5,502 nt of DNA, taken from positions 1 through 5,502 of the forward strand of contig VBJR01000128.1 of NCBI GenBank assembly GCA_005880175.1, written 5' to 3'. Under the pieces are notes generated by a model. The model ran no database searches, was not told where the DNA came from, and was given only the letters and a program-made list of their open reading frames with translations. The position numbers were made by a program, and so were the translations under genes. The stretch is from Chloroflexota bacterium (GTDB taxonomy: Bacteria > Chloroflexota > Dormibacteria > Dormibacterales > Dormibacteraceae). Position 1 is the stretch's first letter. The number at the start of each line of letters is the position of its first letter. This document shows, piece after piece, positions 1-5,502 of this stretch.

Positions 1-47
1 CCGCCGCCGGCCAGGCCGATCCGCAGCGGCGCCCTGGCGATCAGCAT
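1..47 (-). CDS. GHMP kinase, N-terminus only (probable D-glycero-D-manno-heptose 7-phosphate kinase); runs off the left edge
   Basis: Only the first 15 codons are present, starting at ATG 47-45 on the minus strand. The start overlaps the upstream gmhB stop as TAATG (one shared base), a classic coupled junction. The readable peptide is MLIARAPLRIGLAGGG. This matches the opening of GHMP-superfamily sugar kinases (M-[IL]-I-x-R-x-P-L-R-I-x-x-x-G-G-G), notably HddA, which phosphorylates D-glycero-D-manno-heptose 7-phosphate at O-1 in the GDP-heptose pathway. The match covers one beta strand and the start of a glycine-rich turn; the ATP-binding loop lies outside the window. The two genes before it encode the other heptose enzymes, which favours the heptose kinase over homologues such as fucose or mevalonate kinases. 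Family assignment is fairly secure for so short a piece; exact substrate is inferred from context. Confidence 0.72.
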   Translation of the reverse strand, partial: MLIARAPLRIGLAGG

Positions 48-748
48 TAGCGCAGGAGGGTCACCGCGTCCAGCAGGTCGTGCGCCACGGGGACGCGTGT
101 CGCCCGGGCGCCGGCCGCCGCCGCGGCCGGACCCACCCACACCGCGCGGCAGCCCGCCGCGTGCGCGGCCTGCACGTCGATCCAGGTGTCGCCGATCATC
201 ACCGACCGGCGCAGGTCCACGTGCCGCTCGGCGGCGGCGCGGAAGAACAGCCCCGGGGCGGGCTTGCGGCACCGGCACCCGTCGTCGGGTCCGTGGAGGC
301 ACGCGAGCACCGCGTCGATCAGGCCGCCGGCCGCCTCGACCGCGGCGCGCATCCGGCCGTGGATCTCGTCGAGCCGGGCGGCGTCGATCAGGCCGCGGCC
401 CACGACCGACTGGTTGGTGAGCACCACCACGCGCTCGCCGGCCGACCGCAGCCGGCGCAGGGCCTCCAGGCTGCCGGGCAGGAACTCGAAGTCGGCCCAG
501 CACCGCACGTGCTCGGGCCGCTGGACGTTGATGACGCCGTCTCGGTCCACCAGCACGGCGGGGCCAGGGGTGTGGCCGGAAACTGGCCGAGAGATTTGGC
601 GTCCAGGTGCCCCAGGCAGGCCGCCGACGGCGAGCAGCGGAGCGAGCGTAGTCGACCTACGTAAGCGAGCAGCGGAGCCGGCGGGGGCCTGGATGGGGTG
701 CATGGGCGTCAAAGATCCGGCTGGGTTTTCGGCCGCACCCCTAGGCAT
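47..748 (-). CDS. gmhB: D-glycero-D-manno-heptose-1,7-bisphosphate phosphatase (HAD family) with an N-terminal extension encoded by a palindromic element
   Basis: This HAD-superfamily phosphatase would remove a phosphate from heptose 1,7-bisphosphate in the cytoplasm. Numbering from ATG 748: motif I VLVDRDGVIN has nucleophile Asp68 and acid/base Asp70; motif II is TNQS (111-114); the GmhB-type zinc loop is Cys150-x-His152...Cys158-x-Cys160, followed by RKP; motif IV is GDTWID (Asp187, Asp191). All are intact. The domain proper is about 170 residues, the normal family size, but the ORF has 233. Residues 3-61 come from the 177-bp palindrome at 566-742 and look like no known domain. ATG 748 overlaps the gmhA stop by 8 nt and has a weak GAGGG about 11 nt upstream. 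An alternative GTG start at 556 would give 169 residues but has no visible ribosome site and would begin within the first beta strand. The 748 start is therefore the outer bound. The 3' end overlaps the GHMP kinase start by one base. Confidence 0.88.
   Translation of the reverse strand: MPRGAAENPAGSLTPMHPIQAPAGSAARLRRSTTLAPLLAVGGLPGAPGRQISRPVSGHTPGPAVLVDRDGVINVQRPEHVRCWADFEFLPGSLEALRRLRSAGERVVVLTNQSVVGRGLIDAARLDEIHGRMRAAVEAAGGLIDAVLACLHGPDDGCRCRKPAPGLFFRAAAERHVDLRRSVMIGDTWIDVQAAHAAGCRAVWVGPAAAAAGARATRVPVAHDLLDAVTLLR
566..742. repeat. 177-bp imperfect palindromic element (MITE-like or structured-RNA-like) at the gmhA/gmhB junction
   Basis: The whole stretch is symmetric about position 654. 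Terminal arms 566-583 and 725-742 match at 16 of 18 positions as inverted repeats, with AGGGGTG at one end and CACCCCT at the other. A second stem pairs 595-614 with 694-713 (15 Watson-Crick pairs, 4 G.T, 1 mismatch), continuing through 617-622/686-691, 624-626/682-684 and 628-631/677-680. An apical hairpin pairs 647-651 with 657-661. Between apex and stem lie two direct copies of GCGAGCAGCGGAGC (630-643 and 665-678). There is no transposase ORF, so if mobile it would be non-autonomous. The right end abuts TA (742-743); the left end abuts CA (565-566), possibly a decayed TA duplication. The length is exactly 59 codons and the element is read through by gmhB. Element status is inferred from structure alone; genomic copy number is unknown. 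Confidence 0.8.
630..678 (+). repeat. 14-bp direct repeat pair flanking a short hairpin inside the palindrome
   Basis: GCGAGCAGCGGAGC occurs at 630-643 and again at 665-678. The copies are in the same orientation, so they cannot pair with each other over most of their length and form an internal loop in the larger palindrome. Between them is a short hairpin, CGTAG (647-651) with CTACG (657-661) around a TCGAC loop. This is a distinct architectural unit, unlike a simple terminator. Confidence 0.75.
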
Positions 749-1328
749 CGAGCGCTGCCCTCGTCCCGGCGGTGATCGCGTGCTGGAGCACCAGGTGGCA
801 GTCCTCGATGACCCCGTAGTCGGCGCTGTCGGCGACGAGCGCCAGGTCGACGGCGCCCAGGAGGCGACCGCCGCGGCAGCCGGTCAGGCCGACCGTGCAG
901 GCGCGGAGCGACCGGGCGACGCGGACCGCCTCGAGGACGTTCGAGGAGCTCCCGCTGGCGCTGATGGCGACGACGAGATCGCCGGGGTCGAGCAGGCCGC
1001 TCAGCGGCTCGGCGAACACCCGCTCGTAGCTGGTGTCGTTGGCCCACGCCGTCAGCGAGGCGGCGCTGTCGGTCAGGGCCGTGACCCGCAGCCGGGGTCG
1101 TCCAGGGACCGCGGTGGACTTCGAGAGATCGCATGCGAAGTGGCTGGCCGTCGCGGCGCTGCCGCCGTTCCCCAGCACGTACACACGGCCGCGCGCCGAA
1201 TGCGTGCGCAGGACGGCGTCGACGACCGCGTGCACTGCGGCCGGCGAGATGCGCTCGAGCGCGCTGCGCACCGCTGCGATGTGCGTCACGATCGCGGACG
1301 CGGACAGTCCGGACTCCCTCGCCGGCAC
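741..1328 (-). CDS. gmhA: Sedoheptulose-7-phosphate isomerase (SIS domain, GmhA family)
   Basis: A cytoplasmic SIS-domain isomerase that would convert sedoheptulose 7-phosphate to D-glycero-D-manno-heptose 7-phosphate, the first step of nucleotide-heptose synthesis. Numbering from GTG 1328: phosphate-binding GNGGSAA at 53-59, followed by SHFACDL; a second sugar-phosphate loop AISASGSSSNV at 121-131; GLTG at 147-150; and near the C-terminus YGVIEDCHLVLQH, whose His178 aligns with catalytic His180 of E. coli GmhA. The E. coli acidic residue Glu65 aligns with Asp67 here, a conservative change. The chosen start gives 195 residues with GNGGS at about 53, as in E. coli (192 residues, GNGGS at 51). 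The frame stays open upstream to ATG 1373 and GTG 1412 (223 residues), but that extra part is Arg/Ala-rich, has no convincing ribosome site and looks untranslated. The TAG stop (743-741) lies on the edge of the palindrome and overlaps gmhB. Confidence 0.88.
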   Translation of the reverse strand: MPARESGLSASAIVTHIAAVRSALERISPAAVHAVVDAVLRTHSARGRVYVLGNGGSAATASHFACDLSKSTAVPGRPRLRVTALTDSAASLTAWANDTSYERVFAEPLSGLLDPGDLVVAISASGSSSNVLEAVRVARSLRACTVGLTGCRGGRLLGAVDLALVADSADYGVIEDCHLVLQHAITAGTRAALDA

Positions 1329-1439
1329 TGTCAACGCCCGACTCCGCGCAGGTCGATGGGCGTGCGCGAGCATGCGAGAGCACGCAGATGGTTCATGGCA
1401 CCTACTACCCACAGCCGGTAATCGATCAGCCTGACGCCA

Positions 1440-1459
1440 CGGGCCCTTGCCGGGGCCCG
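1440..1459. other. GC-rich hairpin in the gmhA leader
   Basis: CGGGCCC (1440-1446) pairs perfectly with GGGCCCG (1453-1459) around a 6-base loop. It is not followed by a T-run on either strand, so it is not a typical intrinsic terminator. It would lie in the 5' leader of the heptose operon if transcription starts at the promoter proposed near 1475. Confidence 0.45.
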
Positions 1460-1480
1460 GCGCCGTATCTCAATTGTCAA

Positions 1481-1508
1481 GATATACGGCTTTCTAAGCA
1501 GCCGTCAA
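1481..1508 (-). promoter_or_regulatory. Candidate promoter of the heptose operon
   Basis: On the minus strand TTGACG (1508-1503) is separated by 16 bases from TATATC (1486-1481), a reasonable fit to a housekeeping -35/-10 pair in a locally AT-richer stretch. The -10 box lies in one arm of an inverted repeat, GCCGTAT (1462-1468) with ATACGGC (1484-1490), so a repressor or structure could act here. Start would be near 1475, leaving a leader of about 145 nt to the GTG at 1328. Confidence 0.4.
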
Positions 1509-1524
1509 CTCTGGTGATGTCCGG

Positions 1525-2012
1525 TCAGGCCGGCTCCCCGACGACGACGATCCGGGGGTCGTTGTAGTTGTACGTCGTGCACGTGGTGAGGACGATCTCC
1601 TCGTGGTCACCGGGCCGCAGCCAGCGCAGGTCCGTGACCGGCCAGCGCGCGAAGTACTGGGTGACGACGTACCGCCGAACGACGCCGGCGGGCCCGGTGA
1701 TCTCGATGTGCATCCCCACCCCGGCGCCGAACAGCGGCCCGAACATGCCTGCGCGCGCGTGCGCGTAGATGACGGAGCGGCCGCCGTCGCCCGGCCAGGA
1801 CGTGCCCGGGTAGTGCACCGCCTTGTACAGCGGCGCGTTGTCGGGAGCGGGGTCTCCGGCGGCGGCGGGCTGACGCTGATGATGGCCGCCGGCGTCCTCA
1901 CGGCCACCTTCGGGACGCTGGCGCGCTGATGCGCCGCGCTCGCCACGGCGAACGCCGCGACCGCCACGAGCACGCCCGCGGCGGCCGCGATCGCCCGCTT
2001 CCGGATCACCAC
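1525..2012 (-). pseudogene. Sortase-family transpeptidase, split by an apparent frameshift
   Basis: Sortases are membrane-anchored cysteine transpeptidases that cleave a C-terminal sorting motif and attach surface proteins. The likely start is GTG 2012 (or GTG 2009), with a strong AGGAGG (2028-2023) 10 nt before GTG 2012. The first frame reads VIRKRA, then a hydrophobic anchor (about residues 6-23), then a Pro-rich linker containing SPPPPETP. The catalytic half lies one base out of register: LYKAVHYPG, PGDGG, then IYAHARAGMFG with catalytic His, and LTTCTTYNYNDPRIVVVGE with nucleophile Cys and catalytic Arg, ending at the TGA at 1525-1527. In that frame there is no start before GTG 1818, and a TGA closes it just upstream of the anchor. 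A single missing base, probably in the CGG repeat near 1855-1870, explains the split; the repaired protein would have about 162 residues, normal for small sortases. All catalytic residues survive, so recent mutation, assembly error or unusual recoding remain possible. The start overlaps the DUF4012 stop. Confidence 0.8.
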
Positions 2013-3850
2013 GAGATCGTCACCTCCTCGTCGCCACCGCCGGTCAGGGCCCGGGTGTGGACGGCGCCCGGGACGCCGGCCACCAGCCGCATCGGCCGGC
2101 TGAGGACGCCGGCCTGCTTCTGGACGTACAGCCGGTACCCCGGGCCGGGCGCGAGCGGCGTCTCGTACCACAGGCGCAGCTCGGTCGTGTGGCCGGGCGC
2201 GGTCCGGAAGAACGTCCCGACCACCCGCTTGGCGTGCTCGACCGTGAGGTCCTCGATGGCGCCCTCCGCCGGCCGGGCGCCGTCCAGCTCGGCGAAGCCG
2301 GTGATCGTGGCGGCCTCGGGCAGGTAGACCCGGACGTAGTCCCGGTACGCGGGGTCGGCCCCCGGCGGGACCGAGGCGTCCACCGCCCCGGGCGGATACG
2401 CGTAGCGCAGCGCGAGCAGGTGTCGGGCGAGGCCGTCGTCGCCGATCTCCACCCGGTCCTCGACGCTCTTGCGGACGATCGCGTCGCCCTTGGTGCCGCC
2501 GACGTTCGCGTCCACGACCATCTCGTAGTCCTCGCCCGCCGGGGGCTGGACGAGCGCGCCGTCCACGTGCGCCCCGCGGGCGGCGGCCGACACGGCCGCG
2601 TCGTGCATGGCGAGCTGGACGTGCCCGGTCCGCGCCTCGGGCGCCAGGGCGCCGAGGAGCCGCAGCCAGAGCGACGGCGGCGCGCCCAGGAGGCGGGTGA
2701 CCAGGGCCTGAGAGACCGGGACCATCGCCTGCTTGCCGCTGCCCGGACCTCGCTCCGTGTTCACGATGGCGTTCAGCTTCGGGAAGAAGTCGGCCGCCGT
2801 GAACGCGCCGTACGGCGGCACGTCGAGGGGCCCCGTGACCGTGAGCAGGGCGGAGATCGCGTACGGGTCGATCGCGATCGTCCCGTCCACCTGCCGGCCC
2901 GTGGCGGACCGGTAGATCCGCTCGCAGAGCGCCGCGCTGGTCGGGAAGTCCGGGTCCCAGCCGGCGTCGCCGAGGTCCAGCGAGTCGCCCGCGAACGACA
3001 TCCGCCGGGCGAGGGCCGCCGGCACCGGCACGCGCTCACGCTGCAGCGCGTTGATCGCCTCGTAGCCGAGGACGGCGAAGCCCGAGGCCGTCCCGTGGTC
3101 CATCGAGACGGTGGCCAGGCTCCCGAACAGGCCGCCGGAGGGCCGCAGCTCGTAGGGGTTGGGGAACAGCAGGAGGTACGTCCGGGGACCGGCGGCGCCG
3201 AGCACCGCGGGCAGGGAGTCGGCGGCCGCCGAGGCGGTGGCCACCAGCTCGCGGGCACGCCCGAGCCGGTCCATCGCCGCCGCCACCTGGCGCTGGAGCG
3301 GCGGCAGGAGCCCCGCGTCGCGGTGGAGGCGCGCCAGCGCCAGGTCCAGGCGGTGCCCGGCGTCGCGGAGCGCGGGGGCCGCGGCGACGAGCAGCGCGAG
3401 CAGCCGCGGGCCCGGCGGGGGGGCGCCGCCCCGCAGGTCCGCCGCGACCCGGCCGACCCGGACCAGGTCGCCGACCGCCGCCGCCGCGTCTCCCGCGGAG
3501 TCGGCCAGGTCGAGCGCCGCGGCGCGCTGCGCGGCCGCGACGGGCAGCCGCGCGGCGACGCGCAGCGCCAGGTCGGCGCGCAGCCGCGCCGTGGCCGAGG
3601 CGATGTCCGCGGCCGCCTCCCGCTGCAGCCTCCCGGCGGCGTCGACGCGATCGGCCGGCGTCGCGTCGAGCGGGCCGGCGAGGCTGGAGGAAGCCTGATC
3701 GAGGCGGGTCACGCCGCGCTCCAGCAGCGCGACCGCGCCGGCCACGTCCATCGTGAACGAGGCCAGGGACAGCAGCGTCACGGCGAGCGCGACGAACGCG
3801 ACGCCGTACGCGAGGCGACGCCGGGACTCAGTCGATCTCAGCGACGGCAC
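2006..3850 (-). CDS. DUF4012-family membrane protein
   Basis: A large membrane-anchored protein of the DUF4012 family, whose biochemical role is not established; members are often found beside exopolysaccharide genes. From GTG 3850 (614 residues) it has a short basic N-terminus, one transmembrane segment (about 17-37), and a long Ala/Arg/Leu-rich helical region (about 40-215) that may be coiled coil. The DUF4012 core begins near 222, with LLLFPNPYELRPSGGLFGS, GWDPDFPTSA, DGTIAIDPYAI and LTVTGPLDVP. The C-terminal region is probably beta-rich and extracytoplasmic. The frame continues to ATG 4006 (666 residues), but the extra 52 residues are Arg/Cys-rich, lack a ribosome site and overlap the divergent promoter region, so I prefer GTG 3850, placed just before the basic-then-hydrophobic anchor. 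The stop codon overlaps the sortase start and the sortase ribosome site lies within this gene, so the two are likely co-translated. Confidence 0.85.
   Translation of the reverse strand: MPSLRSTESRRRLAYGVAFVALAVTLLSLASFTMDVAGAVALLERGVTRLDQASSSLAGPLDATPADRVDAAGRLQREAAADIASATARLRADLALRVAARLPVAAAQRAAALDLADSAGDAAAAVGDLVRVGRVAADLRGGAPPPGPRLLALLVAAAPALRDAGHRLDLALARLHRDAGLLPPLQRQVAAAMDRLGRARELVATASAAADSLPAVLGAAGPRTYLLLFPNPYELRPSGGLFGSLATVSMDHGTASGFAVLGYEAINALQRERVPVPAALARRMSFAGDSLDLGDAGWDPDFPTSAALCERIYRSATGRQVDGTIAIDPYAISALLTVTGPLDVPPYGAFTAADFFPKLNAIVNTERGPGSGKQAMVPVSQALVTRLLGAPPSLWLRLLGALAPEARTGHVQLAMHDAAVSAAARGAHVDGALVQPPAGEDYEMVVDANVGGTKGDAIVRKSVEDRVEIGDDGLARHLLALRYAYPPGAVDASVPPGADPAYRDYVRVYLPEAATITGFAELDGARPAEGAIEDLTVEHAKRVVGTFFRTAPGHTTELRLWYETPLAPGPGYRLYVQKQAGVLSRPMRLVAGVPGAVHTRALTGGGDEEVTISW
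2023..2028 (-). promoter_or_regulatory. Strong ribosome binding site for the sortase gene
   Basis: AGGAGG on the minus strand, inside the last codons of the DUF4012 gene, 10 nt before GTG 2012. It decides the sortase start and places it in the anchor-encoding frame, not in the frame of the catalytic domain. Confidence 0.75.
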
Positions 3851-4029
3851 AGTGACATCTCGGGCAGCCCGCAACCATGCGGCGGAGCCTATCAGGCGGC
3901 GCCGGCGACAGCCGTGTCGCGATCTCAGCCTTGACCGGAGGCACAGGGTTCGACTACGTTCGCGAACGAGTCCCTCAGTAGCGCTGGTCACACAGCAACA
4001 CAGCATGGCTGGGAAAAGAGGTTCACGGA
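3851..4029. promoter_or_regulatory. Divergent promoter region between the DUF4012 gene and the secreted-protein gene
   Basis: Non-coding space separating two divergent transcripts. On the plus strand TTGACC (3931-3936) and TACGTT (3955-3960), 18 bases apart, form a plausible -35/-10 pair for the rightward genes. On the minus strand TAGGCT (3891-3886) could be a -10 box for the DUF4012 gene, but I see no good -35 partner. A perfect 12-bp palindrome lies at 3957-3968. An AAGAGG ribosome site at 4016-4021 serves the gene at 4030. Confidence 0.45.
3957..3968. promoter_or_regulatory. Perfect 12-bp palindrome, possible operator
   Basis: CGTTCGCGAACG is identical on both strands and overlaps the last four bases of the candidate -10 box for the rightward genes. 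That position suits a dimeric repressor. No specific regulator can be named from the sequence. Confidence 0.35.
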
Positions 4030-4623
4030 ATGATCTGTCGCGCCCTCAGATGGCTTCTGTGCGTCGGTGTCGCCGGCCTGGCGTTCGTCCAGCCCGGAGC
4101 CGCCTTCGCCTACACGATCGGGAGCGGCTCGACCGCGACCGGTCCGACCGGCATCGCCGCCGGTGTACCGTTCACCTTTCTGGCAACGTTCATACAGCCC
4201 GACGGCACACCGGTGCCTGCCGGACAGACGGTGACGTTCTCACAGCTGAGTGGCCCTGGCACTGCCAGTGTGCCGCCGTCGCCGCTGAGAATCGGCGGGC
4301 AGTGGGAGCGTGTCTCGCTCGCCGCGTCCACGTGCCAGGCGACGTTCAACCCGGTGACGACCGTGACCGACTCGGCCGGCCGGGCCGCCAGCACGGTGAC
4401 CCTGCCTCCGGGCTGCCCGGGCCAGTTCGTGCTCGCGGCGACGCTGGCTGGCGACGGCTCCGTCACGCTCACGGTCGTCGAGACGGGCGGCTTCCCGAAC
4501 ACGACCGCCGACCCGGCGCGGGGGCTGCCGTCGTGGCTCGTCGTCGCCGGCGCGTTCGCGCTGTGCGCGATGGCCGTGGCCGGCGTCCGGCTCTGGAGCG
4601 CCCGGCGCAATCGATGGAACTGA
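4030..4623 (+). CDS. Secreted surface protein with a sortase-like C-terminal sorting signal
   Basis: A 197-residue exported protein of unrecognised specific function. Residues 1-27 form a signal peptide: Arg at 4 and 7, a hydrophobic core LLCVGVAGLAFV, and probable cleavage after AFA. The middle (28-150) is Thr/Val/Gly/Pro-rich with PDGTPVPAGQTVTF, resembling bacterial Ig-like beta domains; Cys102 and Cys129 could form a disulfide. The tail is organised like a cell-wall sorting signal: FPNTT at 155-159, a short spacer, a hydrophobic segment (about 168-186) and a positive end with four Arg (187, 192, 193, 195). FPNTT resembles LPNTA-type motifs but is not canonical. If uncleaved, the tail would still be a membrane anchor. 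ATG 4030 is supported by AAGAGG (4016-4021) 8 nt upstream. The 3' end overlaps the Wzz-like gene by 10 nt, so the pair is probably one operon. The nearby sortase makes a substrate relationship plausible. Confidence 0.8.
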   Translation: MICRALRWLLCVGVAGLAFVQPGAAFAYTIGSGSTATGPTGIAAGVPFTFLATFIQPDGTPVPAGQTVTFSQLSGPGTASVPPSPLRIGGQWERVSLAASTCQATFNPVTTVTDSAGRAASTVTLPPGCPGQFVLAATLAGDGSVTLTVVETGGFPNTTADPARGLPSWLVVAGAFALCAMAVAGVRLWSARRNRWN

Positions 4624-5502
4624 CCCGCGCGCTCCGCGCCGCCCGGCGGCGCCTGTGGCTCGTGGTCGCGCTGCCGCTGCTGGCGGGCTTCGCCGCAGCG
4701 GCGGTCAGCGCGGCGCTGCCTCGCGTCTACGAGGCCCAGGTCGGCGTGCTGGTGCGGCCGGCGCAGCCGATCAGCTCGCTCGACCCCAACGCGGCGGCGG
4801 TGACGGCGGACCAGGTCGCCGTCACCTACTCGCAGCTCATGACGCAGCGGTCGCTGCTCGAGAAGGTCGTGGCCGACCTGCGCCTGCCGATGACCGCGGA
4901 CGACCTGTCCCGTGCCGTCTCGGTGGCTCCGCAGTCCAACTCGACGCTGCTCCGGGTCACGGTGCGGGACACCAGCCCGAGGCGGGCCAGGAACATCGCC
5001 AACAAGCTCGTCGACGACTTCATCGCCCAGACGAAGCAGATCCAGCAGACGCAGGTGGACCAGTACGCGGCCCGGATGCAGGGCCAGGTGCAGCAGCTGC
5101 TCGGCCAGATCCAGGGCGAGCAGGCGCGGATCGACCAGCTGCACGAGCAGAGCAGCGCCGCGCACCCGCTGTCGCCGTCCGACCAGGCGCAGCTCACGAA
5201 CCTGGAGCAGCAGGTCACGGTGGACCGCTCCCAGTACTTCCAGATCCTGGGCAGCGAGTCCGACATCGAGGTCAACGTCGCCCGGACGATGGACAGCGTC
5301 ATCGTGATCTCGCCGGCCGTCACGCCGGACTCGCCCGTGTCGCCGAAGCCGCTGCTCAACGTGGCGCTGGCGATCGCGGCGGGCCTGCTGGTGGCCGTGG
5401 GCGCCGCCCTGCTGATGGATCACCTCGACCAGAGCGTCAAGACGGACGCGGAGCTGACCGAGCGGACCGGCATGGTGCCGCTGGCGCACATCCCGCTGGC
5501 CG
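4614..5502 (+). CDS. Wzz/chain-length-determinant family protein (polysaccharide co-polymerase), partial at the right edge
   Basis: An inner-membrane polysaccharide co-polymerase that would regulate chain length and export of a surface or exopolysaccharide. It begins at ATG 4614, inside the end of the preceding gene (ATGGAACTGA, 10-nt overlap), and stays open to the right edge (296 codons). Visible layout: basic N-terminus MELTRALRAARRR; TM1 about 14-35 (LWLVVALPLLAGF); an extracytoplasmic Wzz region with YEAQVGVLVRP; a Gln-rich coiled coil about 139-183; the proline-rich stretch TPDSPVSPKP before TM2 (about 244-268); then cytoplasmic DHLDQSVKTDAELTERTG and PLAHIPLA. That last segment is the linker that usually leads to a bacterial tyrosine kinase (BY-kinase) domain, so the full protein may be a fused Wzz-kinase as in many Gram-positive and actinobacterial systems. 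The kinase itself is outside the window. No good ribosome site is seen, consistent with translational coupling. Confidence 0.9.
   Translation, partial: MELTRALRAARRRLWLVVALPLLAGFAAAAVSAALPRVYEAQVGVLVRPAQPISSLDPNAAAVTADQVAVTYSQLMTQRSLLEKVVADLRLPMTADDLSRAVSVAPQSNSTLLRVTVRDTSPRRARNIANKLVDDFIAQTKQIQQTQVDQYAARMQGQVQQLLGQIQGEQARIDQLHEQSSAAHPLSPSDQAQLTNLEQQVTVDRSQYFQILGSESDIEVNVARTMDSVIVISPAVTPDSPVSPKPLLNVALAIAAGLLVAVGAALLMDHLDQSVKTDAELTERTGMVPLAHIPLA

Follow-up and report, generated by a model that had tools for sequence, protein, structure and literature searches.

MITEs such as Correia, RUP and ERIC are short, non-coding, multicopy elements with terminal inverted repeats that duplicate their target, and those of the IS630/Tc1-like kind insert at TA or CTAG. 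In Rickettsia, palindromic repeats have entered proteins: RPE of about 150 to 180 bp, dispersed over the genome, encode a conserved peptide, and some of them lie in frame in ordinary enzyme genes (PMC10969869); their tag is CGTC (PMC3733652). REP/BIME elements are palindromic, are located mostly downstream of genes, and carry a tetranucleotide at the foot of the hairpin (PMC3733652).

Here, we analyzed 5,502 nucleotides of a Chloroflexota bacterium of the Dormibacteraceae (GenBank GCA_005880175.1, contig VBJR01000128.1, positions 1 to 5,502; the window) in which a palindromic insert lies in frame in gmhB. The insert is a copy of an apparently undescribed, multicopy hairpin family of about 180 bp in soil Dormibacteria (Chloroflexota); a literature search of titles and the first parts of abstracts found no description of such a family. 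An earlier reading made from the sequence alone had compared the insert to RPE, and the comparison stands in effect: the palindromic repeat in gmhB is 177 nt long, open and in frame, and the protein relatives listed are without it. At the level of the family the comparison breaks down, as no single peptide frame is kept open (open in 54 of 85 copies, and open with an in-frame length in 16). The family also differs from RPE in its ends, which lack the CGTC tag by eye and are CTAG-like instead (an exact CTAG on the left of 20 copies and on the right of 33, out of 85), and in that most copies abut stop codons. Like MITEs, the family ends in inverted repeats, encodes nothing itself and duplicates its target (five filled/empty pairs; exact CTAG at two), and its CTAG/TA-type target resembles that of IS630/Tc1-like MITEs. 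Unlike MITEs, it forms from end to end a single hairpin that covaries and whose internal loops are conserved, and its outer stems differ between copies yet still pair.

A hairpin lies in frame at the gmhA-gmhB junction

Both heptose genes of the window are on the minus strand. The upstream gene, gmhA (741..1412), encodes a SIS-domain phosphoheptose isomerase whose stop is the putative insertion target; gmhB (47..748) encodes a 233-aa protein that profile matches identify as a D-glycero-D-manno-heptose 1,7-bisphosphate 7-phosphatase-like HAD protein. The gmhB ATG (746..748, minus) forms an 8-nt overlap with the end of gmhA, stop included (ATGCCTAG), and a Shine-Dalgarno-like GAGGG (758..762, minus) that may serve it lies inside gmhA, 9 nt upstream. 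As the earlier reading had stated, gmhB is open through 566-742, a stop-free insert of 177 nt in its frame. We refined these bounds to a hairpin of 173 nt (568..740, minus in the family orientation; loop 652-656) flanked by two target copies. The left copy, CTAG (741..744, minus), holds the gmhA stop TAG (741-743), falls within gmhB codons 2-3 and is separated from the ATG (748-746) by one base. The putative right copy, CTGG (564..567, minus), is one change from CTAG, and similar CTGG or CCAG right copies occur in locus L264. Hairpin plus one target copy amount to 177 nt, or 59 codons, beginning in gmhB codon 3.

Folding bore out the palindromic nature of the insert: positions 560-750 (191 nt) formed one long hairpin as RNA (-97.9 kcal/mol; z = -6.2) and folded at -49.1 as DNA (z = -4.2), and 0 of 200 shuffles were as stable in either case. 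The family covariance model, built from a seed to which the window copy belongs, matched 565-744 on the minus strand (143.5 bits; E = 4.7 × 10−31). The Rfam 15 covariance models gave 0 matches in the window up to an E value of 1. The window copy is of the CTAG type and is without a GTG 9 nt from the element end. An alternative GTG start for gmhB (554..556, minus) lies 8 nt past the end of the element model (565); starting there would retain LVDRDG, and no Shine-Dalgarno-like sequence precedes it.

The neighborhood looks like a surface-polysaccharide locus. A sortase-like ORF (1525-1818, minus) and a DUF4012 protein (2006-4006, minus; its named Dormibacteria relatives only 37 to 44% identical) lie near the heptose genes, and a plus-strand ORF (4613-5500) without a Pfam match presumably resembles a chain-length (Wzz-like) protein, judging from its sequence.

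The GmhB core is intact behind a low-confidence tail

The GmhB core matched its family profile over residues 63-230. TIGR01656 (GmhB/histidinol-phosphatase-like HAD) scored 143.8 bits, above its cut-off of 84.15, and the equivalog NF006506 scored 156.4 bits, below its own cut-off of 178. By position, residues 1-2 are native, about 3-61 come from the insert, and the core runs from about residue 62. In the predicted structure, pLDDT was 45 to 62 in the first six 10-residue blocks; among the later 18 blocks it was 88 to 98 in 17 and 72 in one. The model thus has a low-confidence N-terminal tail (residues 1-60), presumably disordered, followed from about residue 61 by a HAD core modeled with confidence. 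We lean toward the 59-residue tail being translated; a tryptic peptide predicted within residues 3-61 is GAAENPAGSLTPMHPIQAPAGSAAR.

A search of 5.8 billion proteins returned 794 GmhB matches, of which 120 were listed and 19 aligned. Query coverage among the 120 listed reached at most 74%, so none of these reaches the extension. P0001, the closest GmhB among the matches listed (95 to 96% identical; 176 aa), starts MRSPAVLVDRDG and is without the insert. Its N terminus, MRSPAVL, is almost exactly the MPSPAVL that removal of the insert predicts (MPGPAVL being the other form), in line with the earlier suggestion that deleting the insert restores the usual GmhB start. The empty gmhA-gmhB site is known as this protein alone: no DNA-level empty site of a close relative was found, loci from the contig scan being at most 60% identical among the matches listed, and gmhB is at most 57% identical to its matches in the class. 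The 8-nt gmhA/gmhB overlap is present in several class relatives (TTGCCTGA in L125; TTGGCTGA in L123), and ATG 748 is therefore probably the ancestral gmhB start. The equal overlap in these relatives also led us to discard the idea of ATG 748 as a spurious start within gmhA. Separately, one database GmhB, P0016, has a long N terminus that matches the gmhB frame inside gmhA (L001), a gene-caller over-extension and a warning for N-terminal claims about the window GmhB.

The absence of the insert from P0001, the shared overlap and the mobility of the family support an in-frame insertion into codons 2-3 of gmhB, and with it the earlier proposal of a normal gene that took up an insert without losing its start.

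Related hairpins are dispersed through Dormibacteria

Further copies of the element, for which the earlier reading had proposed a search within the genome, were found across Dormibacteria genomes. The first six genomes, reached via GmhB relatives, contained one strong DNA match (74% identity; E = 1.6 × 10−16), and DNA matches were present in 2 of 18 genomes of that taxonomic family. Class-wide, 32 of 110 genomes gave BLAST matches at the DNA level (as many as 8 in one genome, a lower bound with 7 candidates scored in each). A covariance model built from 28 copies, the window copy among them, matched 64 of the 110 at an E value of 1 × 10−5, and in a phylum-wide search it matched 38 of 400 genomes at 1 × 10−8. 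Of these 38 carriers, 28 were already known from the class and 10 were not (best of these, 5.5 × 10−13). Copy numbers from the model are likewise lower bounds, as 24 candidates per genome were scored in the class and 6 in the phylum. The AtpA of one carrier, G096, is 100% identical to P0143 of "Candidatus Dormibacteraeota bacterium," and this name identifies the class as Dormibacteria.

Of 134 covariance matches, 85 copies, window included, were analyzed. Set aside were shadow matches on the opposite strand, repeated loci or identical copies, L119, which is cut, and L196:944-1055, which is partial. Alignment A3 omits L081 (the same as L094), L098 and L119. Among 28 copies, 29 of 41 base pairs showed compensatory two-sided changes with pairing kept. 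Paired cells made up 93.4%, versus 79.3% in shuffles (counts that ignore the relatedness of copies) and 31 to 47% with partners slid by 1 to 3 columns. The outer stems of L103, L110 and L122 are quite different in sequence and still paired. Judged from these alignments, the covariation indicates that the family maintains the pairing of its hairpin. Stems could also be perfected by palindrome correction acting on the DNA, though it would erase the asymmetry that is conserved: internal-loop sequences are conserved and unlike between the two arms, and the highest-scoring copies reach about 200 bits on the forward strand versus about 58 on the opposite strand.

The frame corresponding to that of gmhB was open in 54 of 85 copies, versus 33% expected after base shuffling; length was a multiple of three in 30 copies, and 16 were both open and of in-frame length. 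A conserved coding frame in the family was rejected on these counts. Since 16 of 85 copies qualify, an open, in-frame insertion is about a one-in-five outcome and no rare coincidence; the outcome at gmhB was an ordinary draw, kept perhaps as gmhB was needed.

Several other forms were seen alongside full-length copies. L254, L255, L257 and L258 carry, near 2970-3100, mini-hairpins of the outer stem alone (L254 reads CTAGAGGTGCGGCCG-AAAAGCC-CGGCCGCACCTCTAG), and the flanks of those in L254 and L257 are common to two sister genomes. An apex-deleted copy was also found. The apical stem by itself (query 69-126) is repeated at G102:C32:12500-12558, C21:32425-32483 and C3:84945-85003, and the element may consist of nested palindromes. 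G007 (24 of 24 scored candidates; best, 1.3 × 10−15) and G039 (11) had many weaker model matches, possibly sister hairpin families in other lineages of the class. L081 and L094, from two MAGs, are identical over a stretch of hundreds of bases that surrounds one copy, and their adjoining DNA is far less similar; the same copy recurs in a third (G094:C46). The probable cause is mis-binning or a chimeric contig. G094:C46, G004:C119 and G014:C83 share one copy and may be one mis-binned contig, not three independent finds.

Filled and empty sites in sister genomes indicate mobility

The sister genomes G096 and G097 (AtpA 99% identical; DNA 86 to 94% identical in long compared blocks) differed at five sites in the presence of a copy. 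At atpA-atpG, G096 is filled, and G097 has a single CTAG, the atpA stop. Two sites in L201 are filled in G097 and read CTAG and ACAG in G096, and two in L264 are filled in G096 and read CTAG and CTGG in G097. The empty targets were thus CTAG at three sites, CTGG at one and ACAG at one; the target was the TAG stop of the upstream gene at 3 of 5, and target copies were exact CTAG at 2 of 5, with at least one change at the other 3. The copies in G096 are 80 to 98% identical to one copy in G097. These presence/absence pairs show that the family moves, with a CTAG-like 4-bp target. A profile search of all fetched loci found a copy in 1 of 30 atpA loci (G096 alone), a sample in which a few loci are short downstream and L218 ends inside atpA. 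Of the 85 copies, 20 have an exact CTAG on the left, 33 on the right and 10 on both sides, over a background of 0.4% per 9-nt window. CTAG is a common target, not the sole one.

No transposase tied to the family was found among the two kinds looked for, Y1_Tnp and DDE_3, in 40 draft genomes. Y1_Tnp gave no match in 39 of them, and its sole carrier, G090, had no element match, which disfavors a RAYT/REP origin. An IS630-type obligate partner was set aside as well, and the family differs here from IS630/Tc1-like MITEs: DDE_3 was found in only 6 of the 40 genomes and in none of the element-rich G099, G101, G075 and G092. A search with the element end pattern in 10 draft genomes (20 fetched regions) returned full, truncated, apex-deleted and mini copies and no long inverted pair; an autonomous partner sharing these ends did not appear in those 10 genomes. 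The plasmid search gave no match to the element, the phage search gave one weak 42-base match (E = 4 × 10−3) that we take as chance or the common apical repeat, and a 23-nt core pattern had 0 matches in viral contigs.

Copies abut stop codons and may supply start codons

In 51 of the 85 copies, which include the non-independent orthologous pairs L176/L189 and L116/L153, the stop of a gene pointing at the copy lay within -5 to +3 nt of one of its ends; random placements in the same loci abutted a stop in 162 of 17,000 cases (about 1%). Abutting stops within -25 to +12, both sides counted, were TAG in 36 cases, TGA in 32 and TAA in 6. Neighbors were in forward tandem at 39 copies, convergent at 15, in reverse tandem at 13 and divergent at 12, and 6 copies had no left gene. 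Gene calls came from a simple GC3 rule; the opposite directions called for the one junction seen in both L116 and L153 show that some directions are miscalled. In each of the two orthologous pairs, the copy stands at the same junction in two genomes. Neighboring genes include core genes that we take, by eye from their translations, to be atpA, pyrB, ilvC, mreB, uvrC, purC and murF.

Of the 85 copies, 21 carry an ATG or GTG at a distance of exactly 9 nt ahead of the end of the element. For 16 of these the right gene runs in the same direction, and the codon was in its frame in 15 (binomial P = 8 × 10−7 against 1/3, a statistic weakened by gene calling and by the orthologous pairs). Same-direction right genes numbered 49 overall; 44 had an in-frame start codon at -25 to +30, and 10 had one at -25 to -1 with a Shine-Dalgarno-like GAGG inside the element. 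PurS in L180, when started in the element foot, matched its profile from residue 3. These observations suggest that some members of the family provide the following gene with its start codon. A target duplication holding the start codon in the subfamily with a start at 9 nt reached a z of only 2.1 and is not claimed.

A further in-frame copy was found in L106 (1503-1690, minus; start at 1697), between a start in an ATGA overlap (MK) and the hydrophobic stretch LALVAATLVLVACGG. It is probably a second in-frame insertion, giving an element-coded n-region of about 62 residues before a lipoprotein-like signal. The empty form of L106 was not found, and the Pfam matches of the protein, DUF3465 and DUF4131, were weak and below cut-offs.

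Discussion

We consider it probable that the window records the insertion of a mobile hairpin into the CTAG stop of gmhA, which placed 59 codons inside gmhB and gave its product an N-terminal tail. The element would be a non-autonomous, multicopy mobile hairpin of Dormibacteria, moved by transposition machinery. It would have inserted at the CTAG that is the gmhA stop codon and left a 4-bp target copy on each side, as seen for some family members and supposed for the window copy. Because gmhA and gmhB overlap by 8 nt, such an event would leave gmhA whole and keep the coupled ATG 748, with 59 stop-free codons placed between gmhB codon 2 and the core. Ribosomes starting at ATG 748 would then read through the hairpin to make GmhB with a disordered N-terminal tail. 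Several points weigh against this explanation. So stable a hairpin could block gmhB, or translation could begin at GTG 556; the empty gmhA-gmhB site is seen as the protein P0001 and not as DNA; the right target copy in the window is CTGG, not CTAG, and exact CTAG is far from general among the copies, whose abutting stops also include TGA and TAA; neither of the two transposase kinds looked for could be tied to the family; and the open frame, as read across the family (54 of 85), is no more than a frequent by-product.

The first of these points can be extended to a different account, in which the hairpin is intercistronic, gmhB starts after it at GTG 556 or is poorly translated, and the extension is an annotation artifact. 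Other copies do lie between genes that could start at the hairpin or beyond it (44 of the 49 right genes that run in the same direction), no open frame of the element is conserved in the family, a start at GTG 556 keeps LVDRDG, and over-extended database starts such as that of P0016 exist. We nevertheless think this account the less probable one, given that GTG 556 has no Shine-Dalgarno-like sequence before it, that ATG 748 retains GAGGG and the overlap with the gmhA stop, and that a start at 556 has no need of an insert that is both in frame and open. A tentative reading of the whole family goes further and treats it as a mobile coupling device that inserts at the stop/start junctions of operons. 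The base of the hairpin would join the upstream stop to the downstream ribosome site, the outer stem would co-evolve with the opening codons of the gene that follows, and one subfamily would bring along GAGG and, 9 nt from the end of the element, a GTG start. At the 5′ foot, a ribosome that terminates there would open the outer stem, or skip the 180-nt hairpin, and restart at the 3′ foot, and in gmhB the insertion would have run in frame to yield a protein tail. The start codon 9 nt from the end (21 of 85 copies; in the right-gene frame in 15 of 16), the GAGG before starts in 10 of 49 same-direction right genes, the PurS match and the outer stems that vary while pairing would fit such a device. 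Coupling is nonetheless meaningless for the 15 convergent and 12 divergent copies of the 85, though some directions are miscalled; the window copy has no GTG at -9, the copies are not independent, and the choice of ORFs can favor frames that enter the element. We regard coupling as possible but doubtful.

That the family is instead a conserved, structured regulatory RNA and not a mobile element is unlikely. The covariation with conserved internal loops, the strand-specific scores (about 200 versus about 58 bits) and the junctions that retain a copy in two genomes (L176/L189, L116/L153) would fit such an RNA; the five presence/absence sites between sister genomes, dispersed copies up to 98% identical among many unrelated neighbors, and an atpA junction filled in 1 of 30 loci argue for movement. 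The family may be both mobile and functional. Less probable still, to the point of being very improbable, is that the family consists of REP elements mobilized by a transposase of the RAYT kind (IS200/IS605-like). The family shares with REP the palindrome, the location mostly at gene ends, a tetranucleotide (CTAG) at the hairpin foot and conserved mismatches, but its tag is CTAG rather than GTAG, its 173 nt are at least four times the 20 to 40 nt of REP, and Y1_Tnp was found in 1 of 40 draft genomes and in none of the element-rich ones. Our preferred explanation remains the mobile hairpin in the gmhA stop codon.

Beyond the insert in gmhB, the larger result is the hairpin family itself, whose copies sit flush against stop codons and in part against start codons. 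Operons are usually harmed by mobile elements; this family lands on stop codons, leaves its neighbors readable and preserves its hairpin through compensatory changes, and some of its copies appear to provide the start codon for the gene that follows. Natural filled/empty pairs, such as that at atpA, are suited to tests of the effect of an intercistronic hairpin on translation, and the family offers a second setting, beyond Rickettsia, in which palindromic repeats may extend proteins in frame.
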